This document shows, piece after piece, positions 33,182 through 51,600 of a DNA stretch of 64,000 bases. The DNA comes from Sulfurospirillum halorespirans DSM 13726 (GTDB lineage: Bacteria > Campylobacterota > Campylobacteria > Campylobacterales > Sulfurospirillaceae), in contig NZ_CP017111.1 in NCBI RefSeq assembly GCF_001723605.1, positions 2,542,001 to 2,606,000 on the forward strand. The letters run 5' to 3'. Position 1 is the first letter of the stretch. Every line of letters begins with the position of its first letter. The notes beneath the pieces were generated by a model. That model had not been told where the DNA came from and ran no database searches. It saw only the letters and a list, made by a program, of their open reading frames with translations. The position numbers and the translations under genes were made by a program.

Positions 33182-33208
33182 AAAAAGAGTTCGTGAAGAA
33201 CTCTTTTT
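33182..33208 (-). terminator. Strong hairpin terminator after enolase-superfamily gene
   Basis: AAAAAGAGTTC (33182-33192) and GAACTCTTTTT (33198-33208) form a perfect 11-bp stem with a 5-nt loop and A/T flanks. It ends the minus-strand metNIQ-enolase operon, and the stop codon lies at its edge. It could also work in the other direction. Confidence 0.85.
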
Positions 33209-34385
33209 ACTGAATGGTAGTAATAACACCTTTTTTGAAAACAAACTCTGAAAACTCATTACCAATTCCTGGTAAATCTGGCACAGTATACATCCCTTTT
33301 TCAGGCTGATAATCATGAATACAGAGTCGTTTATTGTAGTCATGCAAATTATAGACATGATGCTCATGAATCGTAAAGTTTGGAATGGCCGCTTCGAGTT
33401 GAAGCGCAACAGCGGTTGAAAGCGGACTGGCGCAGACATGCGCTTGAACCCCAACGTCATACAGATGTGCCATATCGCAAATCTTTTTCGCTTCGGTGAT
33501 GCCACCGCAATTACCAATATCAGGCTGAATCATCTGAATAGAGCCATTTTCAAAATAAGGCGCGAAACCCCACCTAGAGTAGATGCGCTCGCCTTGAGCG
33601 ATGGGGATATTAATATGATCGTGGATAAATTTATTGGTTTTTGGCGTTGGGGTGCAGGGCTCTTCAAAAAGAAAAATGTCATATTTTTCAACCAAACGAC
33701 CCAATTGAACTGCCACTTGCGCATCAATGTATGAATGGTTTTCCATAATAATATCCACATCCGCACCAATAGCATCTCTCACCGCCGCGACTCTGTTGAC
33801 GACCATATTTTTATATTTGGGAGCCAACAGTCTGGTTGTATCTTCACTTGTAAGACGACGACCCGTTTCATCAAAAGTGAAAAAGTCGATTTTAATCGCG
33901 TCATAGCCTTGTGCCACCGCAATTTTTGCATACTTCACATAATCAGCAATGCTCGCCGCAATTTCCCTGCGCTCACCCCAACCAAACTGCAATTGACTCG
34001 CATATGTGCGCAACTTATCGCGCATTTTTCCACCCAGAAGCGCATAAATTGGCATCTGAAGCGCTTTGCCTTTAATGTCCCAGAGCGCAATGTCTAAAGC
34101 AGAAATTGCCGAAAAGATGACTGAACCGCCATTTTGTGCCCAAAAGGTTGACTTGTAGAGTTTTTCCCAGATCACTTCCGTGTCAAACGGATTCATTCCA
34201 ATGATTAAAGGGGCCACATCTAACAGCATTCCATGTGCCGCTTTGGCACCAATGCCATACGCCATCGCCGATTCGCCATCGCCATAAATACTCTCATCGG
34301 TATAAACCCTACACACAATAGGATGCCACCCTTTAGGATTGTCTTCTACATCCACCGCGATGACGTCAATCTTCGTTATTTTCAC
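33207..34385 (-). CDS. Enolase-superfamily enzyme (mandelate racemase/sugar-acid dehydratase-like)
   Basis: A 392-residue protein with the MR-type capping domain (1-120) and barrel. YDAIKIDFF near 165 gives the first catalytic Lys region (KxD rather than KxK). The metal ligands appear as Asp/Glu in VDIIMENHS near 215, Glu in LFEEPC near 241, and Glu in AQGERI near 267. A His is in GVQAHVCASPLS near 315, as in galactonate- and mannonate-dehydratase-like members. The substrate is unassigned. GTG 34385 follows AGGAG by 6 nt; a TTG at 34391 has no spacing. It ends the metNIQ-type operon. Confidence 0.82.
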   Translation of the reverse strand: MKITKIDVIAVDVEDNPKGWHPIVCRVYTDESIYGDGESAMAYGIGAKAAHGMLLDVAPLIIGMNPFDTEVIWEKLYKSTFWAQNGGSVIFSAISALDIALWDIKGKALQMPIYALLGGKMRDKLRTYASQLQFGWGERREIAASIADYVKYAKIAVAQGYDAIKIDFFTFDETGRRLTSEDTTRLLAPKYKNMVVNRVAAVRDAIGADVDIIMENHSYIDAQVAVQLGRLVEKYDIFLFEEPCTPTPKTNKFIHDHINIPIAQGERIYSRWGFAPYFENGSIQMIQPDIGNCGGITEAKKICDMAHLYDVGVQAHVCASPLSTAVALQLEAAIPNFTIHEHHVYNLHDYNKRLCIHDYQPEKGMYTVPDLPGIGNEFSEFVFKKGVITTIQ

Positions 34386-34419
34386 CTTCAACTCCTAGTG
34401 TTTCATGCTAATGTATCCC

Positions 34420-35235
34420 CTAAAAACCAGGGATACTGCTTCCTTTGTAAATACCATTAATGCCTTCTCGTACTTTTTCAGTGGTATAAGAAGCCAGAAT
34501 ATCTTTCGCCCATTTCGTATCTTTGTTTTTGTTCGCAATGATAAAACCAACACCGAATTTATCGGCATCTTTCGATGTCGCAATTTGGTATTTTGGGTCT
34601 AACTTATTGCTCACCGCAAATAACGTAGCCGAAAATGCTGCGTCCGCATCGTCTAATGAGGCGATCACTTGATGGACATGGATTTTAAAGATTTTAACGT
34701 TTTTGTCATTGCTCTCAATGTCCAAATCCGTAGGACTCGTCACGCCAGCCTTTAGCTTGATAAAGTTTAATTGCTCCATCATAAACAATGAACGCGCCAA
34801 ATTGGACTCATCTTGGGGAATAATGATTTTAGCCCCATTAGGAATCTCTTCTGGGGTAGCATATTTTTTAGAGAACATCCCAAATGTATTTTTATGAATA
34901 TACGGTGTTAGCATCGCGATATCGGTTTTATTGCCTGCATTGTAGCTGTCCATCCACGGTTTGTGAGGATGCAATGCCACATCAATTTCGCCGTTTTCAA
35001 TGGCTTTACACATCGTCGTTGCATCTTGCAAAACTTTTACAGTCACCTCATAACCTCTTTTTTTGAGATCTTCGATTCCCAATTCAACCTCAGGCATTGC
35101 CAACGCTGTTGTCGCGATGGTAATGGTTTTTTTCTCAACGGTTGCACCACTAGTTTTACCTTTGTTATCTGAACATCCAGAGAACAGAAGCATACTGCAT
35201 ACAACACCAACAAATAACATCACTATTTTTTTCAT
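34420..35235 (-). CDS. metQ: MetQ/NlpA-family substrate-binding lipoprotein
   Basis: A 271-residue lipoprotein with lipobox LLFSGC (Cys near residue 20) and an NlpA-type fold. Visible segments are ITIATTALAMPEVE at the mature start, GEIDVALHPHKPWMDSYN near 95, and DESNLARSLFMMEQLNFIKL near 150. MetQ proteins bind methionine or its derivatives, but NlpA relatives vary; the usual HQ-PYL segment of MetQ reads HPHKPWMDS here, so the ligand may differ. It has AAGGAG upstream of the ATG and is placed between MetI and the enolase-superfamily gene. Confidence 0.85.
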   Translation of the reverse strand: MKKIVMLFVGVVCSMLLFSGCSDNKGKTSGATVEKKTITIATTALAMPEVELGIEDLKKRGYEVTVKVLQDATTMCKAIENGEIDVALHPHKPWMDSYNAGNKTDIAMLTPYIHKNTFGMFSKKYATPEEIPNGAKIIIPQDESNLARSLFMMEQLNFIKLKAGVTSPTDLDIESNDKNVKIFKIHVHQVIASLDDADAAFSATLFAVSNKLDPKYQIATSKDADKFGVGFIIANKNKDTKWAKDILASYTTEKVREGINGIYKGSSIPGF

Positions 35236-35246
35236 TTTAACTCCTT

Positions 35247-35909
35247 TTATTTAATGCGTTTATAGACATAATCACCCAATAACTGTATTGCCAAAACCAA
35301 GATGAACAGGACAATGACGAGCGTGTACATGATTTTGTCGTTGAAACTTTGATAGCCATAAATTAGTGCAGACGCACCAATGCCTCCTGCTCCCAATGTT
35401 CCTGCAATCGTGGTCAAACTCAAAATTTGGATCACCGATAAAACGCCCCCATTGACGATGGAAGGCAGTGTGGCTGGAATCAAAATTTTAAAGACAATTT
35501 GAAGATTGGTTGCGCCAAATGAACGTGCGGCATCGATGAGATCGAGCGAAACCTCTTTAAAACAGTTCTCAAATATCCGTCCCATAAACGGCGTTGCCGC
35601 AACCGTCAAAGGAAAGAGTGCCGATTCCCAACCGATAACGGAACCCGTGATAAACCGAGTAATCGGAAGAATCGAAATAGCCAAAATGATAAAGGGAAAG
35701 GAGCGTATAAAACTCACAACGATATTGAGCATTGAGTAGCATTTTTCATTGGGAGAGAGCCCATGTTTGCCAACCCAAAACAGCGCAATCGCCAAGCAAA
35801 ACCCCAAAAGACACGCCAACACGGTCGCGCACAGCACCATTAAAAGGGTTACACCCATTGATGGAAATATAATTTGAAAGATAATAACGTCCCATGAATA
35901 ATTCGTCAT
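35247..35909 (-). CDS. metI: MetI-family ABC permease
   Basis: A 220-residue inner-membrane permease with five membrane segments. It has the MetI features TLLMVLCATVLACLLG, FIRSFPFIILAISILP, and the coupling loop LIDAARSFGATNLQIVFKIL near residue 140, followed by AGTLGAGGIGASALIYGYQ. It works with the MetN ATPase 8 nt upstream and the MetQ-like lipoprotein 11 nt downstream. Confidence 0.9.
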   Translation of the reverse strand: MTNYSWDVIIFQIIFPSMGVTLLMVLCATVLACLLGFCLAIALFWVGKHGLSPNEKCYSMLNIVVSFIRSFPFIILAISILPITRFITGSVIGWESALFPLTVAATPFMGRIFENCFKEVSLDLIDAARSFGATNLQIVFKILIPATLPSIVNGGVLSVIQILSLTTIAGTLGAGGIGASALIYGYQSFNDKIMYTLVIVLFILVLAIQLLGDYVYKRIK

Positions 35910-35917
35910 GTTTTTCC

Positions 35918-36886
35918 TTACCCGCGTTCAATGCGTTTATAGCTTAAATGCTGTGCATCAAAATACGCTAAAAATTCTTCTAAACATTCTTCTGAAATAT
36001 TCATCACAAAAGCACTCAAAACACCCTCACGGTAATGGGTTAAACTGCTGTTGATTAGTTTATACGGCTTTTTAAGGGATAGCGATAGATCGGAATGAAA
36101 CTGCTGTCCAACGGCTTCATCGGTAATCAAAATTTCGATATTTATCCCTGTTTCGGGCAAGTTGCACTCCAATATGCCGACAAGATTTTGCAAGGCTTCG
36201 GGTTGTTCTAAAAACACCTCTTTCACATCGCCCGATACCATGCAATGCCCATTTTCAAGAATGCTCATTTTGGTGCACATTCTGTGAATGACCGACATCT
36301 GATGCGTCACCATGATGATCGTTATGCCGTATTCTTTGTTCAGTTGCAGGAGCAATTCAAGAATTTCATCCGTCGTTTTAGGGTCAAGTGCGGAAGTGGC
36401 TTCATCGCAGAGTAAGATTTTAGGATTCATCACCATCGCTCGTGCGATCGCCACGCGTTGTTTTTGTCCGCCACTAAGATCGCGTGCTTTTTGATCGCGT
36501 TTGCTCTCCAAACCGACGATTTTAAGTAGCTTTTCTATTCTCTCTTTTTGCTCAGGTTTGGGTATATGCCAGCACTCCAAAGGAATGGCGATATTTTCAT
36601 ACACCGTTTTTCGATCAATCAGCGAAAATCCTTGAAAAATCATGCCAATATTTTTACGCAATTCTCTAAGGCTTTTGTCCTGTAGCGTCGTAATATCCAC
36701 ACCATCAATAACGATTGATCCGCTTTGAAACGTCTCCAAACCATTGATACATCGAAGTAGTGTCGATTTCCCCGCACCACTGCGCCCGATCAATCCATAG
36801 ATGTCACCATCATCAATCGTAATGTTTATATTTTTCAATACCTCAGTATCGTGATAACGTTTGTGCAAATTTTCGATGGTGATCAT
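35918..36886 (-). CDS. metN: MetN-family ABC ATPase with NIL domain
   Basis: A 322-residue ATPase. Walker A is GRSGAGKST near residue 35, the signature [16 protein letters not shown] near 138, Walker B LLCDEATSALD near 160, and H-loop VTHQM near 193. The C-terminal NIL/ACT-like domain (about 245-320), used in MetN for trans-inhibition by methionine, is present. ATG 36886 gives the family start MITIENLHK; a TTG at 36904 gives six more residues. Its 5' region holds the shared leader described separately. No SAM riboswitch pattern is visible. Confidence 0.9.
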   Translation of the reverse strand: MITIENLHKRYHDTEVLKNINITIDDGDIYGLIGRSGAGKSTLLRCINGLETFQSGSIVIDGVDITTLQDKSLRELRKNIGMIFQGFSLIDRKTVYENIAIPLECWHIPKPEQKERIEKLLKIVGLESKRDQKARDLSGGQKQRVAIARAMVMNPKILLCDEATSALDPKTTDEILELLLQLNKEYGITIIMVTHQMSVIHRMCTKMSILENGHCMVSGDVKEVFLEQPEALQNLVGILECNLPETGINIEILITDEAVGQQFHSDLSLSLKKPYKLINSSLTHYREGVLSAFVMNISEECLEEFLAYFDAQHLSYKRIERG

Positions 36887-36944
36887 ACGAAATGCTTTCT
36901 CCAAATATTTAATGTAGATGAGATTAAGTAGTGACTGTGTAGTA

Positions 36945-37031
36945 TTTACATGTAAAAGGAAAAAGCAGGAAAAAGAGGTGCTACTTCATGTATGTCTAAG
37001 CCTTAGACCAACAGTGTTTCGCGTATTGTAA
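36945..37031 (-). promoter_or_regulatory. Shared leader element, copy A (metN operon)
   Basis: Read on the minus strand: TTACAATAC with a -10-like TACAAT (37030-37025), then the dyad GTCTAAGGCTTAGAC (37008-36994), then the invariant ATACATGAAGTAGCACCTC, a T-run, CTGC, and TTTACATGTAAA (36956-36945). A 38-nt block from TCTAAGG to the T-run is identical to copies B and C. Confidence 0.75.
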
Positions 37032-37145
37032 TTGAATCTTTTTTAAAATGCGGTTAAATGCAAATGACGATTTAATTGCTCACATTGCTTTTGTTAAAGC
37101 GCACTCTGTCTTTTTGCAATTAACCTTTTTTTAACGCCTCGTAGA

Positions 37146-37231
37146 TTAAAATACCTTAAACGCAGTGAGTCTAAGGCTTAGACATACATGAAGTAGCACC
37201 TCTTTTTTCTGCTTCCACCTTTACATGTAAA
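37146..37231 (+). promoter_or_regulatory. Shared leader element, copy B (first reductase)
   Basis: TTAAAATACC with a -10-like TAAAAT (37147-37152), dyad GTCTAAG-G-CTTAGAC (37169-37183), the invariant block to about 37206, CTGC, and TTTACATGTAAA (37220-37231), then the reductase ATG at 37266. If the -10 is right, the dyad lies in the transcribed leader. AGTAG near 37192 can pair with CTGCT near 37209 to form a second stem. Confidence 0.75.
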
Positions 37232-37265
37232 CCACACCGCACACATTTTCACACAAGGAAAAACT

Positions 37266-38585
37266 ATGGGTGTTGAACTCCATAAAGATTTATTAGAGAG
37301 CATCAATATTGACGTCGAACGTCACGCTAAAATGATGGGAATGGGACTTGAAGGCTACAAAACTCAGTTTATGAGCCAAGACAATCGTCCCAAAGCGATG
37401 GAGTATTTCAACTGGTTTATGAGCGAAATCCAAGGACAACGCATCGCCGAGATCAATCAACTAAGAGCCGAGAAAAAACCTGCGGTTGGGGCGTTTTGCA
37501 TCTTCGTTCCCGAAGAGATCGTTGTGGGCGCGGGTGGTGTCTGTTATGGTCTGTGCGGCGGTTCCAACGCTACTGTAGCCGATGCGGAAAGCGAACTGCC
37601 TCGCAATATCTGCCCTCTCATCAAATCCGCCTACGGCTTCAAACTCCAACGCACCTGTGCGTACACCCAATCGGCTGATTTTATTTGCGGTGAAACCACC
37701 TGTGAAGCGAAAAAAAAGACGTGGGAGCTCTTAAACAAACACCATCCCGTTCACGTCATCAACGTCCCACATATGAAGCGCGAACGTGATCTCAGTATAT
37801 GGCAAGAAGAGATCAAAGAGTTTAAAGAGCGCATCGAGAGCGTCACGGAGAAAAAACTCACCCTTGCTGAGATGCTCGAAGGTGTGGAGATCATTAACGC
37901 CAAGCGTGCTGCGCTGTTGCGCTTAGATAAACTCCGTTCTCAAAATCCAGATGTGATGCCCATCAGCGGCAAAGACGCGCTGTTTATCTTGCAAATGGGC
38001 TCAATGGACGATCCCGTGCGCTACACTCAAAATGTCAACAACGTCTGCGATGAACTTGAAGTGCGCCTTCAAAAAGGCATCAGCGTTTTTCCCAAAAACA
38101 CACCGCGTTTGATGGTTTTAGGCACCCCGATTGCCATTCCAAACTGGAAACTTCACACCGCCATCGAAAGTTCAGGTGGATGCGTTATCAACGAAGAGTC
38201 CTGCACAGGGCACCGTTACTATAAAGACAATGTAGATGTCACAGGCGTGCAAAGTGAAGATGACCTCTACCATCGTTTGATCGAGCGCTACGCTAAAATC
38301 GACTGTGCATGTTTCACCCCCAACACAGGAAGAGTTGAAAAAATCGTCCAAATGTACAAAGAGCGCAAAGCCGATGGCGTCATCTACTATACCCTCTCCT
38401 TCTGCCACACGTACAATGTTGAGTCGCACCTTGTCACCGAAGCGCTCGCTAAAGAAGGGATTCCGTGTCTCGTCATTGAGTCGGATTACTCCCCTGAAGA
38501 TGCAGGGCAGATCAAAACGCGTGTCGAAGCCTTTTTAGAGAGCATTGCCTTCAAACAAAAAGCCCAAGCATTCGCGAATAAATAA
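37266..38585 (+). CDS. Double-cubane-cluster-type anaerobic reductase 1
   Basis: A 439-residue protein of the 2-hydroxyacyl-CoA dehydratase/benzoyl-CoA reductase B/D fold, in the double-cubane-cluster protein (DCCP) branch. Cys lie at about 78, 93, 97, 116, 131, 141, 146, 306, 313, 347, 349 and 380, within FCIFVPEEIVVGAGGVCYG, CPLIKSAYGFK, SGGCVINEESCTGHRYY and IDCACFTPNTGR. DCCP from Carboxydothermus is known to hold an [8Fe-9S] double cubane and to reduce small molecules such as acetylene with an ATP-driven activator. The natural substrate here is unknown. It has its own leader and terminator, and is nearly a duplicate of the next reductase. Confidence 0.85.
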   Translation: MGVELHKDLLESINIDVERHAKMMGMGLEGYKTQFMSQDNRPKAMEYFNWFMSEIQGQRIAEINQLRAEKKPAVGAFCIFVPEEIVVGAGGVCYGLCGGSNATVADAESELPRNICPLIKSAYGFKLQRTCAYTQSADFICGETTCEAKKKTWELLNKHHPVHVINVPHMKRERDLSIWQEEIKEFKERIESVTEKKLTLAEMLEGVEIINAKRAALLRLDKLRSQNPDVMPISGKDALFILQMGSMDDPVRYTQNVNNVCDELEVRLQKGISVFPKNTPRLMVLGTPIAIPNWKLHTAIESSGGCVINEESCTGHRYYKDNVDVTGVQSEDDLYHRLIERYAKIDCACFTPNTGRVEKIVQMYKERKADGVIYYTLSFCHTYNVESHLVTEALAKEGIPCLVIESDYSPEDAGQIKTRVEAFLESIAFKQKAQAFANK

Positions 38586-38630
38586 TATTCTAAGATCGTT
38601 ACATGTAATGCTGTAAAAAGTGGGTGCATT

Positions 38631-38697
38631 GGAGGAAAATTCGTGATAAGCGGAGAAATTTCCTCCTAATTTGGTAAAAGATATTTTACCTCTTTTT
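38631..38697 (+). terminator. Double hairpin terminator after reductase 1
   Basis: First hairpin GGAGGAAA (38631-38638) / TTTCCTCC (38659-38666); second hairpin GGTAAAA (38673-38679) / TTTTACC (38684-38690) followed by TCTTTTT. The second is a classic intrinsic terminator, so the two reductase genes are separate transcription units. Confidence 0.8.
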
Positions 38698-38710
38698 AAT
38701 GTTAAGCAGA

Positions 38711-38797
38711 TTACAATACTTTAAACGCTGTTAGTCTAAGGCTTAGACATACATGAAGTAGCACCTCTTTTTTTCTGCTGACCGCTTTACATGTAAA
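38711..38797 (+). promoter_or_regulatory. Shared leader element, copy C (second reductase)
   Basis: TTACAATACT with a -10-like TACAAT (38712-38717), dyad GTCTAAG-G-CTTAGAC (38734-38748), the invariant block, CTGCT, and TTTACATGTAAA (38786-38797); ATG at 38834. Same order and nearly the same spacing as copy B. Confidence 0.75.
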
Positions 38798-38833
38798 CCC
38801 CCACAGCACATATTTTCACAACAAGGAATGACA

Positions 38834-40153
38834 ATGGGTGTTGAACTTCACAAAGAGTTATTGAGTAGTATTGGTGTTGACGTTGAGCGTCATGCAAAAA
38901 TGATGGGTATGGGACTTGCAGGCTATCAAGCGGGTTTTATGAGCCAACCGAACCGTCCCAAAGCGATGGCATATTTTGACTGGTTTATGAGTGAAATCCA
39001 AGCCGAACGTATTGCTGAGATTAATGCACTAAAAGCGCAAAAAAAACCTGCGGTGGGAACCTTTTGTATCTTCGTTCCTGAAGAGATCGTCGTAGGTGCT
39101 GGCGGAGCCTGTTTTGGACTGTGTGGCGGAGCTAACCCACCTATTGCTGATGCAGAGACAGAGCTTCCTCGTAACATCTGCCCTCTCATCAAATCTGCGT
39201 ATGGTTTTAAACTCCAACACACCTGTGCGTATACACAGTCGGCTGATTTTATCTACGGTGAAACCACCTGTGAAGCGAAGAAAAAAACATGGGAACTTTT
39301 GGGCAAACATCACCCTGTGCATGTCATGAACATTCCGCATATGAAACGAGAACGTGATCTTAAAATGTGGCAAGAAGAGATCAAAGAGTTTAAAGAGCAC
39401 ATCGAAGAGGTCAGTGAGCGAAAACTCAGCCTTTCGGAGATGCTTGATGGTGTCAAACTTATCAACGCCAAACGTGACGCAATGAAACGCCTTGACACGC
39501 TTCGTGGCATGCACCCAGACATCATGCCTATCAGCGGTAAAGACGCACTTTTCATCAGCCAAATGAGCTTTTTAGATGACCCAAAACGCTTTACGCAAAA
39601 AGTAAATGAACTCTGCGATGAACTGGGTGAGCGCATCAAAAACAAAGTAAGTGTTTTCCCTGAAAACACCCCTCGCATCATGGTTTTAGGCACACCCATT
39701 GCGCCACCAAACTGGAAACTTCACACCGCTGTTGAAGGCTCAGGTGCGTGCATCATCAATGAAGAAGGGTGCATCGGACATCGTTACTTTAAAGACAATG
39801 TGGACATTGAAGGAGTACAAAGCGAAGACGAACTCTATGCCCGTTTGATGCAACGCTACTCCAAAATCGACTGCGCGTGTTTCACGCCAAACACAGGCAG
39901 AACCGATAAAATCGTCCAAATGTACAAAGATAGACGTGCCGATGGTGTCATCTACTACACGCTTTCTTTCTGCCATACCTACAATGTCGAGTCGCACCTT
40001 GTGACCGAAGCATTAGCGAAAGAAGGCATTCCGTGCCTCGTCATCGAGTCAGATTATTCCCCAGAAGATGCAGGACAGATCAAAACCCGTGTTGAAGCCT
40101 TTTTGGAGAGCATTACGTTTAAACAAAAAGCCGAAGCGTTCGCTAACAAATAA
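38834..40153 (+). CDS. Double-cubane-cluster-type anaerobic reductase 2
   Basis: A 439-residue paralogue of the preceding reductase with the same length and nearly all Cys kept. One Cys is lost: FICGETTCEA of copy 1 reads FIYGETTCEA here (position about 141), so that Cys is not a required ligand. Other differences cluster in the helical middle (about 180-270). ATG 38834 matches the start of copy 1 and has AAGGA at the same spacing; an ATG at 38828 is also in frame. The stop overlaps the activator start (TAATG), which couples this copy, not copy 1, to the activator. Confidence 0.85.
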   Translation: MGVELHKELLSSIGVDVERHAKMMGMGLAGYQAGFMSQPNRPKAMAYFDWFMSEIQAERIAEINALKAQKKPAVGTFCIFVPEEIVVGAGGACFGLCGGANPPIADAETELPRNICPLIKSAYGFKLQHTCAYTQSADFIYGETTCEAKKKTWELLGKHHPVHVMNIPHMKRERDLKMWQEEIKEFKEHIEEVSERKLSLSEMLDGVKLINAKRDAMKRLDTLRGMHPDIMPISGKDALFISQMSFLDDPKRFTQKVNELCDELGERIKNKVSVFPENTPRIMVLGTPIAPPNWKLHTAVEGSGACIINEEGCIGHRYFKDNVDIEGVQSEDELYARLMQRYSKIDCACFTPNTGRTDKIVQMYKDRRADGVIYYTLSFCHTYNVESHLVTEALAKEGIPCLVIESDYSPEDAGQIKTRVEAFLESITFKQKAEAFANK

Positions 40154-40911
40154 TGTTTTGGGGCGTAGATATAGGCTCAACCTATACAAAAATCATCGGT
40201 ATCGGAAGAGAGAAGGAGATCACCCATCATGTGGTGATCCCGACTATCTTTAACCAAGACGTCATCGTGGGCGAGTATTTAGCAGACAAAGAGGTCAAAA
40301 TGCTCGTCGCCACGGGCTATGGACGGCATATGCTAGGAGATTCGCTCGGCGCTCCCGTCATCTCCGAGATCAAAGCCCACGCCAAAGGGGCGTACTTTTT
40401 TCACAACGAAGTCAAAACCGTCATCGACCTAGGCGGACAAGACAGCAAAGTCATCAAAATGGGTGACGATGGCGGATTTACCGACTTTCGCATGAACGAC
40501 AAGTGTGCGGCAGGAACAGGAAAATTTTTAGAGATCGCCGCGAATCGTTTGGGCTTAGACATGCAAACTTTCGCCAACGCAGGCTTTGATGCGACTAAAG
40601 AGCTAACAATATCGAGCATGTGCGCCGTCTTCGCCGAGTCTGAGGTCATTTCCCTTATCGCCAAAAAAGAGAGTTTAGCCAACATCTGCTGGGGAGTTCA
40701 CGAATCCATCGCCTCACGTTTAGCTTCGATGGCTAAAAAATTTGTAGTAAAAGAAAACGACTGCATCGTCTTCACAGGTGGTGGCGCACTCAACCCGTTT
40801 TTACACCATATGTTAGAACTCAAACTAGAGCGTAAAATTCTCGTGCCTGAACATCCTCAACTCATAGGCGCTGTTGGAGCGGCACTTTCGGGGTTTGAAG
40901 TGGTGCAATAA
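40153..40911 (+). CDS. BadF/HgdC-type ATP-dependent activator (DCCP reductase)
   Basis: A 252-residue ASKHA-fold ATPase. It has the DIGSTYTKI phosphate loop at residues 5-13, IDLGGQDSKVIK near 93, the first cluster Cys in NDKCAAGTGKFLE near 118, the second in SSMCAVFAESEVISL near 155, and FTGGGALNP near 208. The homodimer should hold one [4Fe-4S] cluster between subunits and inject electrons at low potential into the reductase on ATP hydrolysis. A single activator probably serves both reductases. Flavodoxin or ferredoxin is the likely donor. Confidence 0.9.
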   Translation: MFWGVDIGSTYTKIIGIGREKEITHHVVIPTIFNQDVIVGEYLADKEVKMLVATGYGRHMLGDSLGAPVISEIKAHAKGAYFFHNEVKTVIDLGGQDSKVIKMGDDGGFTDFRMNDKCAAGTGKFLEIAANRLGLDMQTFANAGFDATKELTISSMCAVFAESEVISLIAKKESLANICWGVHESIASRLASMAKKFVVKENDCIVFTGGGALNPFLHHMLELKLERKILVPEHPQLIGAVGAALSGFEVVQ

Positions 40912-41734: not shown

Positions 41735-41995
41735 ATGATCGTATCAGCCAATGACATTAAAACCAAAGGGGTCACGCTGCTTGACAAACTCTTCGAGAGC
41801 GTGAGCGAAGTGGTCATCAATGTGCGGGGGAAAAACAAGTATGTAGTCATCGACATTGAGCGCTACAAGCAGTTGAGAACCTTGGAGCTTGACCGACTTT
41901 ATGAAGAGACGATGCAAGAGATTAAGGAAGGCAAGTACACGACAGATGTCGAGGAGCACCTCAAAGAAGTAAGAGCTATCGCCAATGGCTTATGA
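41735..41995 (+). CDS. Phd/YefM-family antitoxin
   Basis: An 86-residue antitoxin. The N-terminal Phd-type DNA-binding part reads SANDIKTKGVTLLDKLF with VVINVRGKNKYVVIDIERYKQL, and the C-terminal acidic helix (LYEETMQEIKEGKY) should bind the toxin. A TATAAT (41699-41704) precedes it by 31 nt and AAGGA serves as SD. It overlaps the toxin gene by 11 nt. Confidence 0.88.
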   Translation: MIVSANDIKTKGVTLLDKLFESVSEVVINVRGKNKYVVIDIERYKQLRTLELDRLYEETMQEIKEGKYTTDVEEHLKEVRAIANGL

Positions 41996-42260
41996 AATTC
42001 GTTTAAGCGAAAGCTACAAAAAGCGGCTTCGTAAATTTATTCAATCTCATAAAGATATGGCAGTGCGTTATGAAAAGACCATTCGTACGCTTCAAGAAAA
42101 CCCGTACCATCCTTCCCTTCGCCTTCATAAACTCAAAGGGAATTTAAGTGAGTATTTCTCTATTTCGATTAACATTGAGTATCGCATTATTATGGATTTC
42201 ATGATTGTGGATAACGTCATTCTACTACTCGACATCGGCGCACATGACGAAGTTTACTAA
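41985..42260 (+). CDS. RelE/YafQ-type toxin
   Basis: A 91-residue toxin of the RelE/ParE superfamily. It begins YEIRLSESYKKRLRKFIQSH and carries LRLHKLKGNLSEYFSISI, IEYRIIMDF, and a short C-terminus ending DIGAHDEVY, where the His and Tyr match the mRNA-interferase active-site positions of RelE/YafQ relatives. It should cut ribosome-bound mRNA unless bound by the Phd-type antitoxin. Its stop converges on the T1SS adaptor gene 9 nt away. Confidence 0.87.
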   Translation: MAYEIRLSESYKKRLRKFIQSHKDMAVRYEKTIRTLQENPYHPSLRLHKLKGNLSEYFSISINIEYRIIMDFMIVDNVILLLDIGAHDEVY

Positions 42261-42268
42261 TTCAAAAA

Positions 42269-43540
42269 CTACGGCTCCAACATCGCATTTTTGCTCATTC
42301 GTTTCAATGGAAGCAAAATGTACCCAAGCACGGTTCGTTTACCTGTAATAATATTAATCCCCGTCTCCATTCCTGGCATAATGGGCAAGTTTGGACCGAG
42401 TCGATCTTTGAATGCTTTGATTTTAATGGCATAAAAGATCTCTCCTTTTTGCGTCGTAAAACTATCGGGGCTAATCGAAACAAGTTCGCCCTCAATCATG
42501 CCATAACGAGCATAATCATACGCAGTAATTTCAATATTTGCTTTTTGTCCGACCCAAATGCGACCACGATCAGCCGCTTTGATGTTGGCTTCGACCATCA
42601 AACCCTCTTCCAATGGTGTAATCTCAGCAACCTTATCTCCAGATTTGATCGTGCCACCCACCGTATGAAAATAGAGCACATTCACGATGCCATTGACAGG
42701 AGAGGTGATGAGAAGACGTTTGGTTCTATCGACACTTGCTTCCGTTTGTTGGGAAAGTTGACTTATTTTGAGACGCACATCTTTGAGGTCATTGAGCAAT
42801 TTGGATTGAATGTCAGAGCGAACCGAACCTAACTCATGTATCACCTCTTTGTATTTGCCTTGCGTGACGGGTATGAGATTTTTCACCTCATCGACTTGGG
42901 TAATGAGATTTTGTTTTTTACTCATCTCAAAAAGGTACTCTTTGCGAGACCCAGCGCCTGATTTCATTAACTGCTCAGCAATCGTCGTATTTTCAAGTGC
43001 CATATTGAGCTCTAACATGAGGTTTTTTTGCCGACTCTCTAACTCTTTGAGTTCATACTGTCGCTGTTCTACTTTTTGTTGCACGCCACTGAGACGTTCC
43101 GAATTATTGAGCTTCTCACTCCTAAAAATCTGCATCTCATTTCCAACAATCTCAGGGTATTGTTCGACCAACGCTTTATCAAATACCAACTCTTTGTCAT
43201 CAATGAGACTCATCAAGCGCTCTTCTTTAGCTTGTAAAGAGACACGGTCAAGATCTTTCCCTTTCATATCTGCCGTAAAAAAGGCTTGGTTTAGCTGGTA
43301 AATGGGTTGATTGAGGGCAACATTTTGTCCCTCTTTCACTAGGATTTCAGAGACAATGCCACCTTCCATGTGTTGAAGGACTTTGGTTTGCCCAGAGGGA
43401 ACAATCTTTCCATTACCACGAACCACTTCATCAATTTCACTAAATGCCGCCCAGATCAAAAAAACAAAGAAAAAAAGAGCAATAGGCACGACCGTGATGT
43501 AATAATTCCAGCGTTTTTCAATCATCATTCTGTTTATCAT
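42269..43540 (-). CDS. HlyD-family T1SS membrane fusion protein
   Basis: A 423-residue periplasmic adaptor with one N-terminal membrane segment (about 14-32), a lipoyl-like strand GNGKIVPSGQTKVLQHMEGGIVSEI, a long coiled-coil hairpin (about 90-280), and a beta-barrel part ending with ISPDSF, PIMPGMETGINIITGKRT. It connects the ABC exporter to the TolC-type channel in secretion of the adhesin. It overlaps the ABC gene as ATGA. Confidence 0.92.
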   Translation of the reverse strand: MINRMMIEKRWNYYITVVPIALFFFVFLIWAAFSEIDEVVRGNGKIVPSGQTKVLQHMEGGIVSEILVKEGQNVALNQPIYQLNQAFFTADMKGKDLDRVSLQAKEERLMSLIDDKELVFDKALVEQYPEIVGNEMQIFRSEKLNNSERLSGVQQKVEQRQYELKELESRQKNLMLELNMALENTTIAEQLMKSGAGSRKEYLFEMSKKQNLITQVDEVKNLIPVTQGKYKEVIHELGSVRSDIQSKLLNDLKDVRLKISQLSQQTEASVDRTKRLLITSPVNGIVNVLYFHTVGGTIKSGDKVAEITPLEEGLMVEANIKAADRGRIWVGQKANIEITAYDYARYGMIEGELVSISPDSFTTQKGEIFYAIKIKAFKDRLGPNLPIMPGMETGINIITGKRTVLGYILLPLKRMSKNAMLEP

Positions 43541-45678
43541 GCTGGTTTGCCTTGCAACTGTTTTAATATCTCATCTTTAGCGCCATCCGCAACAATGCGA
43601 CCATTATTAACCACAAGCACTCTATCAACCAAATCCAATGCGGCAAAGCGATGGGTAATGACAATCAGCGTTTTATCTTCCATCATGGGTCTAAGGTGTT
43701 CCACCATCTCTTTTTCAAGCCCCACGTCCATACCCGTTGTAGGCTCATCCAAAATAACAATCGAAGGATCGCTAATCAAGGCACGTGCCAGTCCGACAAG
43801 ATGACGTTGCCCCACAGAGAGGCGATTGCCATTTTCGCCAACTTGGAAGTTTTCACCCTCGCCTGAGCGTTTCACCAACTCTTCAAGTCCCGTCATAGCT
43901 AGCAGTTTAATGAGTCTGTCTTTGCCAATATTGACACCAATCTCAATATTTTCTTTGAGTGTGCCTGAAAACAAAAAAGGCTCTTGGGGCATAATGCCTA
44001 TATGGGAACGCAGTTCCACAGGGTGAATCGTATTGATCTCATGCCCATCAATATAAATAGAGCCTGATTGTGCAACATCAAGTCCTGAGAGAAGTCGTAA
44101 AACCGTACTTTTACCCGCTCCAGTACGTCCGATAAACCCTACTTTCTCACCTGCTTTAATCTTAAAAGTTGCCGCTTGAAGTGAAGGATTTTTAGAACCC
44201 AAATAGGTGTAGCTGACATTGTTAAATTCGATATCGCCCTTAAGGTTTTGTATGCCAATCTCAATCGATTTTTGTGTCTCTAACGGCAAGTGCCAAAAAT
44301 GATTAATCGACTCTAGGGCTTCTTTGAACTCTTTGTACTTACTCAAAATCGTAGATATTTGAACAATAGGCACCATCGCGCGCCCTACTAAAATACCTAA
44401 AGCAACCAAAGCACCTATCGTCATTGTTTTATCTTGAATCTCATAGACACCAATGACCAACGTCAAAACCGTTGCTAATTGCATGACAATAGCGGAGAGA
44501 TTCATCGCAAGATTCGATTGCATCTGAATTTTAAGATTGATAAAATTGTAAAAACTAACAAGCTGTCGCCACTTAAAAAGTCGTTTTGTAATGGCATTGG
44601 TCAGTTTAAGTGTCTCGATGCCTTTAATGGTTTCAAACAGATAGTTGTGCTTCATCTGCCCATCTTTAAAAAGTTTTTTGCTCCAGCTAAAAATGGTAAT
44701 CTGAAACACCATATTAATTCCAATAATAATCAATCCACATACAAGTGCCATGGAAGCGATCATGGGAGAGATCAAGTAGATGACAAAAAGGGTTAGCACC
44801 ACAAAAGGCAGATCAAGTGCGGTGCCGATGCTCTTTGACATAAAAAAATCGCGTATTTGGGCAATCTCTCTAAAAAGATTCGCCTTAGAGCCTGCTAGAA
44901 GCTGGTCATGCCCGCTTTGAATCAGCAGCAAACGCTTCAATGCCTCTTCTTCCAATACACTCCCAATACGCTTTCCCATACTCTCTAAGATATAAACACG
45001 CACCATCTTAAACAGTGCATCAAAAATAAAGATAAGCCCTACGCCAAGGGTTAAAACAAACAGTGTTTCGGTTGCAAAGTTAGGAATGACTCTGTTATAG
45101 ACATTCATCGCGTACATGGGAATTAAAATAATAAAAAGATTGATAAAAACCGTTAGAATTCCCACACGAATAATGTCGGACTTTGCATCTAAAAGATGTT
45201 TCCAAAACCACTCTTTACTCTTTTCGGGATGCGTTAAGATATTTTTATAAGCAATATCTTTAAAAAAAGTTAACAGCGTTGTAAATCGTGCCTGTAAAGC
45301 TTCCATACTCAGATACTCTTTTTCATGCGTTAGAGGATTCAAAAGCGTGATCGTCTCCTCTTCAAAAGAGCTCAAAATAGCGATTTCTTCATTGTCAGAG
45401 ATAACAATGCAGGGAAAAACATGGGAATGCACCATATCTGAGGAGAGTGCTATCTCCTCAAACTCTAACCCAAAATCTTTGGAACCGTATCTCAAATCAT
45501 CGACAGTCACCTGCTTATGATCGTGTGCTAAGATATTTTGAATGGTCTCAAAAGAGACATCCCCATAATAAAAATCAAGAATGTACTTAAAACAAAGGAG
45601 TAATCTATCTTTTGTTTTATGCAAAGGTACTTCTACTAACGTGTCGTGCTGTTGCACTTTTTTTCCTTTAAACAACAT
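43537..45678 (-). CDS. Type I secretion ABC transporter (LapB/RtxB-like)
   Basis: A 713-residue exporter. Residues 10-130 form a C39-like domain without a catalytic Cys/His pair, which in this class binds rather than cuts the substrate. Membrane segments span about 155-430. The nucleotide-binding domain has Walker A GRTGAGKST near 508, signature LSVGQRHLVGLARAL near 605, and Walker B IVILDEPTTGMD near 628. I take ATG 45678, which lies inside the last codons of the adhesin gene; longer in-frame sequence is only adhesin in another frame. It secretes the RTX protein encoded just upstream. Confidence 0.9.
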   Translation of the reverse strand: MLFKGKKVQQHDTLVEVPLHKTKDRLLLCFKYILDFYYGDVSFETIQNILAHDHKQVTVDDLRYGSKDFGLEFEEIALSSDMVHSHVFPCIVISDNEEIAILSSFEEETITLLNPLTHEKEYLSMEALQARFTTLLTFFKDIAYKNILTHPEKSKEWFWKHLLDAKSDIIRVGILTVFINLFIILIPMYAMNVYNRVIPNFATETLFVLTLGVGLIFIFDALFKMVRVYILESMGKRIGSVLEEEALKRLLLIQSGHDQLLAGSKANLFREIAQIRDFFMSKSIGTALDLPFVVLTLFVIYLISPMIASMALVCGLIIIGINMVFQITIFSWSKKLFKDGQMKHNYLFETIKGIETLKLTNAITKRLFKWRQLVSFYNFINLKIQMQSNLAMNLSAIVMQLATVLTLVIGVYEIQDKTMTIGALVALGILVGRAMVPIVQISTILSKYKEFKEALESINHFWHLPLETQKSIEIGIQNLKGDIEFNNVSYTYLGSKNPSLQAATFKIKAGEKVGFIGRTGAGKSTVLRLLSGLDVAQSGSIYIDGHEINTIHPVELRSHIGIMPQEPFLFSGTLKENIEIGVNIGKDRLIKLLAMTGLEELVKRSGEGENFQVGENGNRLSVGQRHLVGLARALISDPSIVILDEPTTGMDVGLEKEMVEHLRPMMEDKTLIVITHRFAALDLVDRVLVVNNGRIVADGAKDEILKQLQGKPA

Positions 45679-48600
45679 GCATATAAAGTGTTTCGTTATT
45701 GGTGGTTGTAATCGTATAATCACCTGTAGCGCTCAAAGCCCATGAGTGATCGGCATCCGTAACACCATTCACACTGGCGACATTATCTAAGGAGATATTG
45801 CTCACAGTTGTTCCACTATTTGCCACATCCAGTGTTAACATAGTGCTCGCAGTTGTTGAAGAGTCAAATGCAAATAAAGATGACGCATTGATGCTTAGAC
45901 CTAAACCACTATCAAGTCCAAGATTACTAATGTCTAAGGTTTCGATATTGCTAAAGAGTGTTGAGTCATTTAAAACAGATGCGTTGGAACCTGTGATACT
46001 GACCGTATCGTTCCCACTTCCTCCATCAAAATGGTCAAATGATGCTAAGTTACTAAAATCTAAAACCAATTGATCATTGCCATTTCCTGTTTGAATCACA
46101 TCAGCACCACCTGTGCTATGAATGAGATCATCTTGTCCCGTCCCCGTAATCGTGTCATCCCCTGTTGTGTCGTTGATTGTTACACCTTTACCCGTAATGC
46201 TTGAAGCATCGTAGGTTCCAGTGGCGCTTAAATTAATACTTAAATTTCCCGTTCCACTCAGGGCAAAACTAGCATCATCACTACTCGTGATCGTTGCATC
46301 GTAACTGTTTAGATTCAGTGCTTCAATATCTTGAAGTTTTCCACTCATATCCATGGTGCTTAAAAGATTGACCGTATCGGTTCCACCATTACCATCAATA
46401 CTGCTTGCCGCGGAAAGATTATAGGTCTCAGTCACACTGCTTGAACCTGAGATAGAATGACCACCTATTGTATCATTATAAGTAATTCCACTTAATCCTG
46501 ATACGGTGGCTACACTCATATCGAGCGAGGCATCCAGCGTTGTTACTAAGGAACCACTTCCAGCAATCGTGCTAAATTGATCAACTTGGGATGAGTTCAT
46601 CGTTAAAGCAACACCGCTATTGATGCTTAACGTATCAAGATTTGAAAGCGTTACACTGCTTAGATCCATGGTTGATGTCACGGTGAGATTATCGGTTCCA
46701 CTCACACCATCAAAACTATGGATGGCGCTTGCATTTGAAACGGTTAGTGTATCATTTCCACTGCCACCTAAAACATCGTAACTACCGCTGGCAAGGGTTA
46801 AAGAGTTACCTAAATCGGAGAAATGGATCGTTTCAATATTGGTGACATTACTGCCAAGACCACTAATGGCTCCACCTGTGGTAAAGTAAAGCGTATCGGT
46901 GCCACTACTTCCATTGACACTATCACTGGCACTAAAATTAGCAACGGTATAATAAAAGATATCTGCACCAGTGCCACCAATGAGGCTAACGTTATTATAA
47001 TCCAATGCCACATCATTGCCACCATTAGCAAGTTGAATGATTTCTATACCACTGAGGGCTGCACTAATACCACCTGCACCACTGATAGCATCGGTAATGA
47101 GCACTGTATCGACGCCACTGCCCCCATTAATTACGGCACTTTGCGTTGCTGTAATGCTAATCGTATCGGAACTACTGCCTGTGGTGACACTAACGGCATT
47201 GGTATACGAAGAGATATCGATGATTAAACTACCCGATGCTAAAGAGCCATCAATCGTAGCAAATTTGTTGATAGCACTGCTATCAAGCGTTACCGATCCG
47301 CTAAAACTGGAGAGATTGAGCGTTTCAAAGTTAGTGACGTTTTGGAACAATGCTCCACCCAGCGTACCGCTTCCTGTTATTTTGAGGATGTCGGTATTAG
47401 CACCACCATCAAGGGTATCACTCGCCGCTAAATTACCCAGTGCGAATTCAACGGTATCAGCTCCATTTCCTGCATAGAGTGTATTATTAACGCTACTTCC
47501 ACCAATAATCGTATCATTGCCACTGGTACCAAGAACGGAAATATTACCCACATTAATGGTATTGGTTCCACTGGCAAGTTGTAAAAATTCAACCGAACTG
47601 TCAATTTTAGTCGTCGTAATCGTTCCTGCATCGCTCATCACAATCGTATCATTGCCACTACCACCAACTAATGTACCAACCGACGTGAGATTTGCAATGC
47701 TGAGATTAAACGTGTCATCCCCATCATCGCCATACAAAAGATCCGCTCCACCGCCACCATTGATGATGTCATTGCCATTGCCACCATAAATCGTATTGGC
47801 AGCACTGGTTCCAGTGATCGTATCTGCGAAGCTTCCGCCTACGAGTGAAACCCCTGTTTTAGAAAAATTGGTTACGGTGTTGATTCCCGCACTTGAAAGC
47901 TGAATCACTTCAATACCGCTCACAGAGTTAAACATCGAAGAAGCATCAAGCGTCCCACTGTTTGAAAATGCCAACGTATCAATACCTGAGCCACCAACAA
48001 TAATGTCTGCACTGCTTAAATTGGCAATGGCATAATTAAATGTATCATTATCGCTACCGCCAATGAGGGAGATTCCATCAAGATTGAGGGTAATCGTATT
48101 GGTGCCCAAAGAAGAAAATTGAATTTTTTGAATATTGGTATAGCTTCCAGCAATCGCACTTATCGTTCCATTGTCGGTAAATTCAAGCGTATTGACGCCA
48201 AGACCACCGTTAATAATATCGCCCGCTGTAAAATCTGCAAGTGCAAATTTAAAGGTGTCATTACCATTGCCTGCATTGACGGTATTGTTGTATCCAACAC
48301 CTCCGATAATCGTGTCATCTGAGGTACTTCCAAGAATGCTGTACCCAGATCCAATGTTTAAAGTATTGGTTCCAGTAGCAAGCTGAATGTACTCAATTTC
48401 GTTTACATGTAAAAGATTGGCAGCATCAATTGTGCCTGTATCAAGGAAGCTCAGCGTATCATTTCCAGCACCTCCATAAAGGGTATCACTGCTACTGAGT
48501 GTGCTGATACTATAGTTAAAGATGTCAGCACCATTACCACCCAATAGCGTAACGCCTTTACTGCTGGCATCTAAAGTAATGGCATTTCCACCGCCATCCG

Positions 48601-51600
48601 CCAGTTGAACTTTTTGAATATTTGACATATTCGTAAACATCGCTTCGGTAAGTGTTCCTGCGGTCGTAAAGAGAAGTGTATTCACCCCACTTCCGCCATC
48701 AAGTGTATCATGGCTATCAAACGTCGTGGCGGTGTATTTAAAAATATCATCCCCGCTACTACCCAAAAGGGTTCCATCGTTAAAATCAATCGTTACGGTA
48801 TTGTTGCCTGTAAAAAGTTGTATCTTTTCGATACCTAAAGCATTCGTAAAGAGTGGATTATCACTTGTCGTTATCGTATCTTTGAGTTGTATCGTATCTA
48901 CGCCTAATCCACCAATCATCGTAAGATTACTGGTGAGATCACTTTTACTCATTAAAAAAGTATCGTTTCCGCTTAATGATCCTGCAACATCATCGCCATA
49001 CAAGACATCCGTTCCACCAAGCGTTCCTCGCTCCAGCGTATCATTACCGCCATTACCAACGAGTGTGTTGCTTGAAGCGTTGCCAACGAGGCTATCATCA
49101 CCCGTCCCTGCGAAGACCCATTCAAATCCACTAATGGTATCTTTAACACTGCTATTCCCGATTTGATAGGCGACATTGGTTGAGAGATTGACATAAATAT
49201 TTTTGCCGCTTAATTCATCATACCTTAGAATATCGGTACTCGTATCCGTTGAAGCATCGCCACCGTACAAGGTGTCGCTATCTAACATACCGTAAATCGT
49301 ATCGCTTCCATTGCCACCATAAAGGATGTCACTACTTCCATCTGCGGTATTCGCTCCTGTAACAGAGCTCCCTCCACCACGAAGAATATCATTACCATCG
49401 CCACCCACAATTATATCAGCACCCATTCCTCCAGCGATAATGTCATTATCAGAACCACCATCGAGATAATCATTACCCTCATCGCCGAACAAACTGTCAT
49501 TACCACGATTTCCCCAAATGCTATTATTGGCATTATTGCCATAAATAATATCTGCATTAGAGGATGTAGCCGTAACGTCCGAACCACTGATATTTTCAAA
49601 ATTACTAATCGTATCTTCTGCCACAAAGCTTGAACCATTCCATACCGAAACCGTTGTTGTTCCCGAATCATTCAACGTGACATTGATTTTACTTTGATTG
49701 ACATAACTAACGGTATCAACGCCATTGCCACCATCAAGGACATCGTTACCACCCATACCCATAATGACATCATTACCATCTTCGCCGTAAATAGTATTAA
49801 CAGCGCTATCGCCAGTAAACGAATCGCTATAGGCCGTTCCTTTAATATTTTCGATTCCACTGATAAGATCGTTCCCACGCGATGCTGAGATATACTGCGT
49901 ATTTGAGGTAGTGCGTAGATCCGTACTGGCGGCTTCTGCAATGCCATCAACGGAATAATCAATCCAGTCACTGCCTGCTCCACCTATCAGCGTATCGCTT
50001 CCAGTACCACCCATAAGGATGTCATCATCATCGCCACCATTAAGGATGTCATTGCCTATGCCACCTTTGAGTGTGTCATCGCCTGCATTACCCAGAAGAG
50101 TATTATCGTTACTATCTCCGCTTAGTGTATCATTAGCACTGCCACCTGTAACGTTTTCGATGTTAACAATCGTATCCGTATCGCCACCACTGAGCGTTAC
50201 AGTTGCATTGGTCGCACCATTAAGTACAACGGTAATCACGCCATTGAGAGCAGAATAATCCACCGTATCACTGTCACCTTCGCCATTGTAAAAATCAGTA
50301 CCATCGCTTAGAGAGGAAGCATAAATGGTATCGTTACCACTACCTCCATAGACACTATCATTCCCTGATTCTGCATACAGTTGATCACTCCCAGCTCCAC
50401 CATAAAGGGTATCGCCGTCATTCCCACCATGAAGGATGTCATTACCATCATCTCCATACAATGTATCACTACCGGCATTGCCATAAATGGTATCGTTACT
50501 TCCATAACCGTGAATAATATTCGCAAGGCTATTTCCGGTTAACGTATCGTCGTAATTGTTTGAGCCTTCAAGATTTTCAATATCTTCGGCAATAAAACGA
50601 TCACTGCCTCCACCACCTGTTGTTTGAACGGAAGTGTTGGAAATATCTACGCTAATAGAAGATCCTGCATAATAATACGAAACCGTATCAATACCGTCTC
50701 CTCCGCTGATCGTATCATTGCCTTCGTGGACTCTAAAATAGTCATTGCCTTCATTGCCATAAAGCGTATTGGTGCCAGCGTTTCCTTCAATAAAATCGTT
50801 GCCTTCTCCAGCATAGAGTATATCGTTATCGTCCCCTCCGTATAAAGAGTCATCCCCTTTACCGCCATAAATGGTATCAGCGCCTACTTCTCCCCAAATC
50901 GTATCGGCACCCGTTTCAGTGCCTCCTGTGGCTAAAGCGTTGGTATTATCATCTCCATAAAGGAGATCCGCTCCTGCTCCTGCATAAATCGTATCATTGC
51001 CTGTGCGACCAACAATGGTATTGCGATTGCTATCACCCGTAAGGGTGTCATTATAAAGGGTGGCTGTGATATTTTCAATACCGGTAATATAATCAACACC
51101 CGCACTTCCCGTGGCATTGCTGTTTGAAAGATTCACAATAACAGAACCACCAATTTGAGCAAAATCAATGGTATCGCCCAAAGTATCATGAGCTCCACCG
51201 TCAATGGTATCATTGCCCGTTGTCATAACAAACCAGTCATCACCCGCATTACCGTGAAGAGTATCCGAACCACTATTTCCGATCAAGGTATCATTATAGG
51301 TCGACCCTAAAACTTTGTAAAAATTGGTGACACTATCAACCGCACCACTGCCATCAACAGCACTGTTTTGAACAACGCCATTAATTGTCAATCCTGAGCT
51401 TAGATTTACAGTAACAGCTGCACTATCAGCAGAATAATCAATGGTATCGGTTCCACTTGCACTACCAACATTACCGCCACTGAGCGTATCTGCGCCAATG
51501 CCTCCTGAAATGGTATCGTTTCCATCGCCACCGTAAATAACATCATCCCCCGCGCCACCTGAGAGAATATCATTACCGCCCCATCCGTAGAGGGTATTCG

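Follow-up and report, generated by a model that had tools for sequence, protein, structure and literature searches.

A likely cis-regulatory leader RNA of a selenium regulon in Sulfurospirillum and other Campylobacterales

Copies of the element in the window and its genome

Three transcription units in a 64,000-nucleotide stretch of the Sulfurospirillum halorespirans DSM 13726 genome, referred to here as the window, begin with the same short element, and one of them lies on the opposite strand. What is this element, and why do these genes share it? An initial annotation had described three copies, each with a TANAAT box, a dyad and a downstream block, and had left open whether they represent an operator or an undescribed structured leader RNA. 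The three copies were confirmed and their coordinates were exact (Table 1); of the two options, the leader RNA is the one supported here. The dyad, GTCTAAGGCTTAGAC, is exact in all three copies, where it forms the P2 of Table 1. A TANAAT box lies 8 nt upstream of each element, and the downstream block is common to all three. The inverted copy, which precedes metNIQ, has a 78-nt arm in common with the second copy at 85% identity.

The window genome, a single contig of 3.03 Mb from the genus Sulfurospirillum, contains four exact copies of the dyad. The fourth is found at genome position 2740282, 161 kb away, 5′ of a Tat-type transglutaminase-like gene (PF01841), and a fifth, P2-only copy of the element, with the P2 variant GTCTACGGCGTAGAC, precedes yedF-selD. 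A DNA similarity search of the window's own genome returned the four strong copies and low-complexity matches, and nothing else. With at most one mismatch, the dyad was present in 23 of 24 Sulfurospirillum genomes, and the reversed control gave 0 matches. Together with the four exact copies in one genome, these counts show that the repetition of the dyad is not due to chance. Its sites in the genus lie 5′ of the double-cubane reductase, the transglutaminase-like gene and yedF-selD. Scanning the whole collection with GTCTAAGGYTTAGACNNACAT gave 27 stretches, apparently all from Campylobacterota; one of these is labelled Proteobacteria, yet it matches a Sulfurospirillum genome in the set.

Table 1. 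Leader copies and the genes that they head, in window coordinates
Feature	Position	Strand	Basis
Enolase-superfamily (MR/MLE) enzyme, last gene of the metNIQ operon	33207..34391	-	PF13378, PF02746
metN, metI, metQ transporter genes, headed by the minus-strand leader	34420..36904	-	ORFs; PF03180
Leader copy 5′ of metNIQ-enolase	36933..37016	-	R2/R3 covariance-model match 83.7 / 80.3 bits; structure by alignment
Helices of metNIQ leader: P1 CACUGU/ACAGUC; P2; P3 UACAUG/CAUGUA	P2 37008-36994	-	
-10-like box TACAAT of metNIQ leader, 8 nt before P1	37025..37030	-	Sequence
-10-like box TAAAAT of reductase-1 leader	37147..37152	+	Sequence
Leader copy 5′ of reductase 1	37161..37241	+	R2/R3 match 75.9 / 73 bits
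Helices of reductase-1 leader (P1 with 4/6 pairs only)	P1 37161-37166/37236-37241; P2 37169-37183; P3 37185-37190/37224-37229	+	
Double-cubane-cluster anaerobic reductase 1 (HGD-D family)	37266..38585	+	NF040772, 452.8 bits over cut-off; PF06050
-10-like box TACAAT of reductase-2 leader	38712..38717	+	Sequence
Leader copy 5′ of reductase 2 (P2 38734-38748)	38726..38808	+	R2/R3 match 85.8 / 81.6 bits
Double-cubane reductase 2, tandem homologue of reductase 1	38828..40153	+	ORF list and translation; homology by reading both sequences
Acyl-CoA dehydratase-type activase (BcrAD/BadFG ATPase)	40153..40911	+	TIGR00241, 227.6 bits over cut-off

The element folds as a three-way junction

The element is about 80-90 nt long and consists of a closing stem, P1, and two hairpins, P2 (the dyad) and P3. 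P2 usually has 6 bp and a GGN loop, and P3 has a conserved ACAU/AUGU core. Reductase leaders of Sulfurospirillum read AUGCUGU..dyad..UACAUG..CAUGUA..ACAGCA, and transglutaminase leaders of the same genus read UGCACGA..dyad..AAACAUAA..UUAUGUUU..UCGUGCCA. The flanks of the two groups differ in sequence and are still complementary, which defines an outer P1 and an inner P3 and makes the dyad P2. The initial annotation had proposed two stems. The first, GUCUA/UAGAC, held and is P2; the second, AGUAG/CUGCU, held in part, as the inner portion of P3 in the reductase leaders. The outer P1 helix, the ACAUG/CAUGU helix of P3 and the selenium theme had been missed.

In an alignment of 52 sequences, 92.3% of cells pair, and double compensatory changes were found in all 6 pairs of P1, all 6 pairs of P2 and 15 of 18 pairs overall. 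The covariation score was 0.462, compared to 0.163 +/- 0.011 for shuffled alignments and at most 0.101 for slid ones. Alignments were built with a covariance model because MAFFT alone misaligned the 3′ arms of P3; this alignment was thus fitted to the structure model, and its covariation figures favour that structure. Support independent of the fitted alignment comes from unrelated P1 and P2 sequences read straight from the DNA. P1 varies from UGCUGU/ACAGCA through to CAUGUAAAG/CUUUACAUG. P2 hairpins of divergent copies are altered in both arms and keep the GG loop (AUCUCA-GGC-UGAGAU, GUCUAG-GGU-CUAGAC, AUCCAA-GGU-UUGGAU, GCCUAA-GGU-UUAGGC, GCCCAA-GGU-UUGGGC, GCUUAA-GGU-UUAAGC and GUUCGC-GGU-GCGAAC). 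Compensatory changes in relatives, the check that the initial annotation had proposed for an RNA, are therefore present in all three helices. Given these changes and the fold, the element is a structured RNA and not a DNA operator.

Beyond the requirements of base pairing, P2 shows the sequence preference YYYAA-GGN-UURRR, and the nucleotides of the loop and of the P3 core are conserved. Within the genus, the reductase and metNIQ leaders keep the CACCTC loop and T-run; other leaders do not. In the yedF leaders of Sulfurospirillum, P2 is present and constrained folding revealed no clear P1 or P3. None of 4227 Rfam models matched the window stretch or 19 divergent loci at the gathering score, in agreement with the initial annotation, which had recognised no known riboswitch class.

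Two variants of the architecture were seen. One leader 5′ of a reductase (L060, genome G007) has a 24-nt perfect hairpin, AUACCAACC-gcac-GGUUGGUAU, between the 5′ arm of P1 and P2. Another, 5′ of yedF (L289, genome G038), has tandem P2-type hairpins, ACCUAA-GGU-UUAGGU and GCCUAA-GGA-UUAGGC, 35 nt apart.

The operator reading holds that GTCTAAGGCTTAGAC is the site of an unidentified transcription factor just past the transcription start. In its favour, the dyad is perfect and nearly invariant within the genus, the yedF sites have it without P1 or P3, and symmetric changes in P2 alone could also reflect operator drift. Against it, P1 and P3, neither of them palindromic as DNA, show complementary changes, and unrelated P2 stem sequences occupy the same position. 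The loop retains its GG, but any base (C, T, A or G) can stand at the matching place on the other side, and the site thus lacks two-fold symmetry. The 24-nt hairpin inserted in L060 can be accommodated by a junction but would be unexpected in an operator that depends on spacing. A dimeric repressor's operator should be conserved with two-fold symmetry between unconstrained flanks; here the GGN is asymmetric and the flanks covary as P1 and P3. With covarying P1 and P3 helices and an asymmetric loop, an operator is very unlikely and was rejected as the main explanation.

Occurrence across the Campylobacterales

A covariance model (R1) built from the reductase and metNIQ leaders recovered the transglutaminase leaders. 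Of 399 genomes from the order, 50 in 13 of 87 genera matched the R2 model, a count that includes one match, within a coding region of G379, judged false; R3, used with laxer filters, added further copies. Besides Sulfurospirillum, at least 12 genera of the order have divergent copies according to the covariance models. These searches were confined to the phylum. The further copies, 5′ of related genes in other genomes, satisfy a second check that the initial annotation had proposed.

In a set of 80 genomes, picked mainly because they had no model match, only one reductase orthologue (G055, 62% identity) lacked a model flag. When its upstream DNA was read, the element was there, as UUCCCA-GGG-UGGGAA followed by ACAUGAAGU..ACUUCAUGAUGU. 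Matches in L049, L074, L075 and L077 lie inside or beside unrelated genes and were judged to be chance, and a match in G489 was left undecided.

Could the repeats be ordinary duplications of a promoter region without a function of their own? The metNIQ copy speaks for this. It is a 92% complementary inverted match to the third copy, the reductase-2 leader, over 63 nt, and it is present in only two genomes, that of the window and G012. As a general explanation, however, plain duplication is all but excluded, since the structure is conserved in at least 13 genera, 5′ of several unrelated gene families, and both the covariation and the distribution contradict it.

For the metNIQ copy itself, which is arranged back to back with the leader of reductase 1, the 92% match and the restriction to two genomes make a recent duplicate of the leader alone probable. 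Most simply, this duplication would have drawn metNIQ-enolase into the regulon. Such a capture would fit import of an organic selenium compound, but this is only a guess.

Genes headed by the leader

Overall, the element heads yedF, selD, the reductase with its activase, the transglutaminase-like gene, a rhodanese lipoprotein gene and a PstS-like ABC transporter. YedF corresponds to TIGR03527, 'selenium_YedF'. Several operons combine these genes: element-reductase-activase-yedF-selD in L243 and element-yedF-selD-selA-selB in L241. The element lies 5′ of selD in L239, with selA-selB further on; in L244 it lies 5′ of the transglutaminase-like gene, behind which comes a yedF paralogue. SelB in these operons was confirmed by profile search and SelA by reading only. 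A tRNA-Sec gene lies within 4 kb of the element at four loci (L190, L193, L197 and L200). In the window genome, the reductases (2.58 Mb), yedF-selD (2.65), two Sec-UGA formate dehydrogenases (2.67 and 2.69), selB (2.70) and the transglutaminase-like gene (2.74) all fall within about 160 kb.

Of the 53 genomes with the element, 50 have SelD and 48 have SelB; in the 27 others, the numbers are 12 and 9, respectively. These counts were made after assigning four element genomes that were found later. The comparison is confounded by kinship, which the P values ignore.

A published list of YedF partners in Slackia comprises Sec lyase, SelD, a 2-hydroxyglutaryl-CoA dehydratase subunit, a CoA-enzyme activase and a transglutaminase-like enzyme (Lin et al. 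2015, PMC5322559, Table 1). This list, which is independent of our leader analysis, nearly equals the set of genes headed by the leader. It is still largely unsolved how bacteria sense selenium and adjust its uptake, its reduction and the making of selenophosphate to their needs. The leader RNA joins yedF, selD, the double-cubane reductase and activase, the transglutaminase-like protein and two transporters as one regulon; it also gives a selenium context to reductases of unidentified substrate and provides a tractable cis-element.

For MetNIQ, the enolase and the PstS-like transporter, the link to selenium is unproven, and the MetN and MetQ/NlpA matches of the metNIQ genes are below the equivalog cut-offs. 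In the PstS-like operons (L237, L238 and L236), the element heads a substrate-binding protein, permeases and an ATPase. The binding protein has a weak, sub-threshold match to the selenium-associated LysR model NF040786, and the system is a candidate for a selenium oxyanion importer.

Two further settings were observed. At L137 and L145, both of family f17, selD flanks the element on one side, and on the other is a gene of 406 aa that has no Pfam match and only weak matches to models of R2-like ligand-binding oxidases; by reading, acyl-CoA-dehydrogenase-like and PhnD-like genes follow. At L293, L284, L295 and L132, a variant with a P1 of at least 9 bp heads the gene for a small rhodanese-domain lipoprotein, which has weak similarity to the selenoprotein TsoB model.

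Position of the leader between promoter and start codon

Of 49 leaders, 46 are preceded by a TANAAT-like box, counted when at least 5 of its 6 letters match; the median distance from the box to P1 is 8 nt. Transcription is therefore expected to start at or just before P1, although the start is unmapped. From the end of P1 to the start codon the median distance is 24 nt (49 leaders), and P1 ends about 14 nt before the Shine-Dalgarno sequence (SD), which leaves no space for an intrinsic terminator. From this spacing we infer that control of translation initiation is most likely. No consistent alternative fold that sequesters the SD was found in the leaders; the mean unpaired fraction of the SD was 0.43 when folded freely and 0.55 with the element enforced. 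The initial annotation had likened the CACCUC loop to an anti-SD. SD accessibility showed no clear switch, and this role is unsupported because the sequence is not conserved outside the reductase and metNIQ leaders.

Whichever sensor is involved, the element is likely to be a cis-regulatory leader RNA, so far undescribed, that serves a selenium regulon, a reading for which there are no expression or binding data. The RNA folds as a three-way junction and should begin at or near the transcription start. It heads the transcripts of what is likely a selenium-supply regulon, and would most likely report selenium status and tune translation initiation of its mRNA. The fold, the leader position and the gene set are data here, while regulation, the selenium signal and the translational level are inferred. 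No description of this leader RNA was found in the open-access literature searched.

Candidate sensors of the leader

We lean slightly towards SelB with Sec-tRNASec, reading a SECIS-like P2, without regarding this as more probable than its alternatives combined; SelB binding is inferred. P2 has the shape of the SECIS hairpins of the clade, with a stem of 5-6 bp and G at the first two loop positions. In the same genomes, selD carries the SECIS hairpins GGGUCC-GGA-GGACCU and GGGUCC-GGG-GGACCU, and fdhA carries UCGCA-GGUGC-UGCGA. The epsilonproteobacterial SECIS has been described as a hairpin of 5/6 bp with an invariant loop G (PMC4607533). The element is not itself a SECIS for Sec insertion, as it sits upstream of the start codon and not 3′ of an in-frame UGA in a coding region.

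There is a precedent for such control, since E. coli selAB is reportedly controlled via a SECIS-like leader hairpin (Thanbichler and Bock 2002; referenced in PMC8124441). Like that leader and bacterial SECIS elements in general, P2 is a short hairpin of 5-6 bp with G at the first two loop positions, and in some genomes the element precedes operons containing selA-selB. Unlike them, P2 is part of a covarying three-way junction with a conserved P3, and unlike the selAB leader, the element heads reductase, transporter and yedF genes. If SelB does read the leader, the E. coli precedent would be widened to regulon-wide control by SECIS-like leaders.

SelB was not found in 5 of the 53 genomes with the element, namely G013, which is 99% complete, and four draft assemblies of 160-280 contigs. 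G013 has two copies of the element, yet no SelB, SelD or reductase was found in it. This may count against selenium or SelB as the signal, unless the assembly lacks sequence. The best match to the SelB model in G013 is too weak even for an intact EF-Tu, and elsewhere in Sulfurospirillum the sel genes are grouped within a single region of about 135-160 kb. The evidence from G013 is thus weak, as the sequence could be missing.

A close second is a small-molecule riboswitch, in which the junction would bind a selenium (or related sulfur) metabolite and switch access to the start codon without a protein sensor. We place it just behind SelB, short of an even case; ligand binding is inferred. This rival keeps the leader-RNA core of the favoured reading and differs only in the sensor. 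It is supported by an aptamer-like architecture at the extreme 5′ end and by a conserved loop and P3 core, the junction and P3 exceeding what SelB should need. Transporters among the targets (PstS-like ABC and MetNIQ) and the two copies that G013 retains without SelB or SelD also speak for it. Against it, no consistent expression platform was found in the leaders, none of the 4227 Rfam families matched, and P2 resembles the SECIS hairpins of the same genomes.

In purine-type riboswitches, a P1 closes a P2/P3 junction 5′ of metabolic and transport genes. The element is similar in these respects; unlike them, it has no common sequence core and no Rfam match, and no ligand has been identified. 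For bacterial selenium sensing, only protein candidates have been proposed so far (PMC5322559). The element resembles LysR_Se and the other regulators proposed there in its proposed control of bacterial selenium genes, but those are protein transcription factors and the element is an RNA within the transcript. A bolder reading, which remains possible, is a new riboswitch class that senses a selenium compound directly and controls uptake, reduction and selenophosphate genes across the Campylobacterales. If a metabolite does read the leader, the element is a new riboswitch class; one that responds directly to selenium would be the first RNA sensor for it.

The leader could also serve as a site for some RNA-binding protein that is not SelB. 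The P2 preference beyond pairing is strong and would agree with this; no candidate has been identified, however, and the three-way junction is more elaborate than such a site requires. We consider this explanation unlikely.

An iterated palindrome at the end of the leader and other window features

The initial annotation had assigned a final TTTACATGTAAA to the element. As a specific part this claim failed, and TTTACATGTAAA was rejected as a leader-specific box because it belongs to a genus-wide iterated palindrome. With at most one mismatch it occurs at 1483 places in the genome, compared to 15 for the reversed control. It does provide the 3′ arm of P3, though not as a leader-specific sequence. 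The window contains 23 copies of the palindrome TTACATGTAA, where 0.1 would be expected, and only 3 of the next 10-nt palindrome. Sites of TTACATGTAA include 819, 5199, 36946, 37221, 38599 and 38787, some of the sites being within ORFs and others intergenic. Its density is about 0.43 per kb in loci of the genus, 0.13 in other genera of the family and near zero in other families.

Downstream of the activase, two short overlapping ORFs (41735-42260 of the window) resemble a Phd/YefM-RelE toxin-antitoxin pair. The stretch at 42269-58198 encodes a protein of 4176 aa rich in GGxGxD-like repeats, which adjoins an ABC exporter and a membrane-fusion protein and which, by reading, suggests type I secretion.
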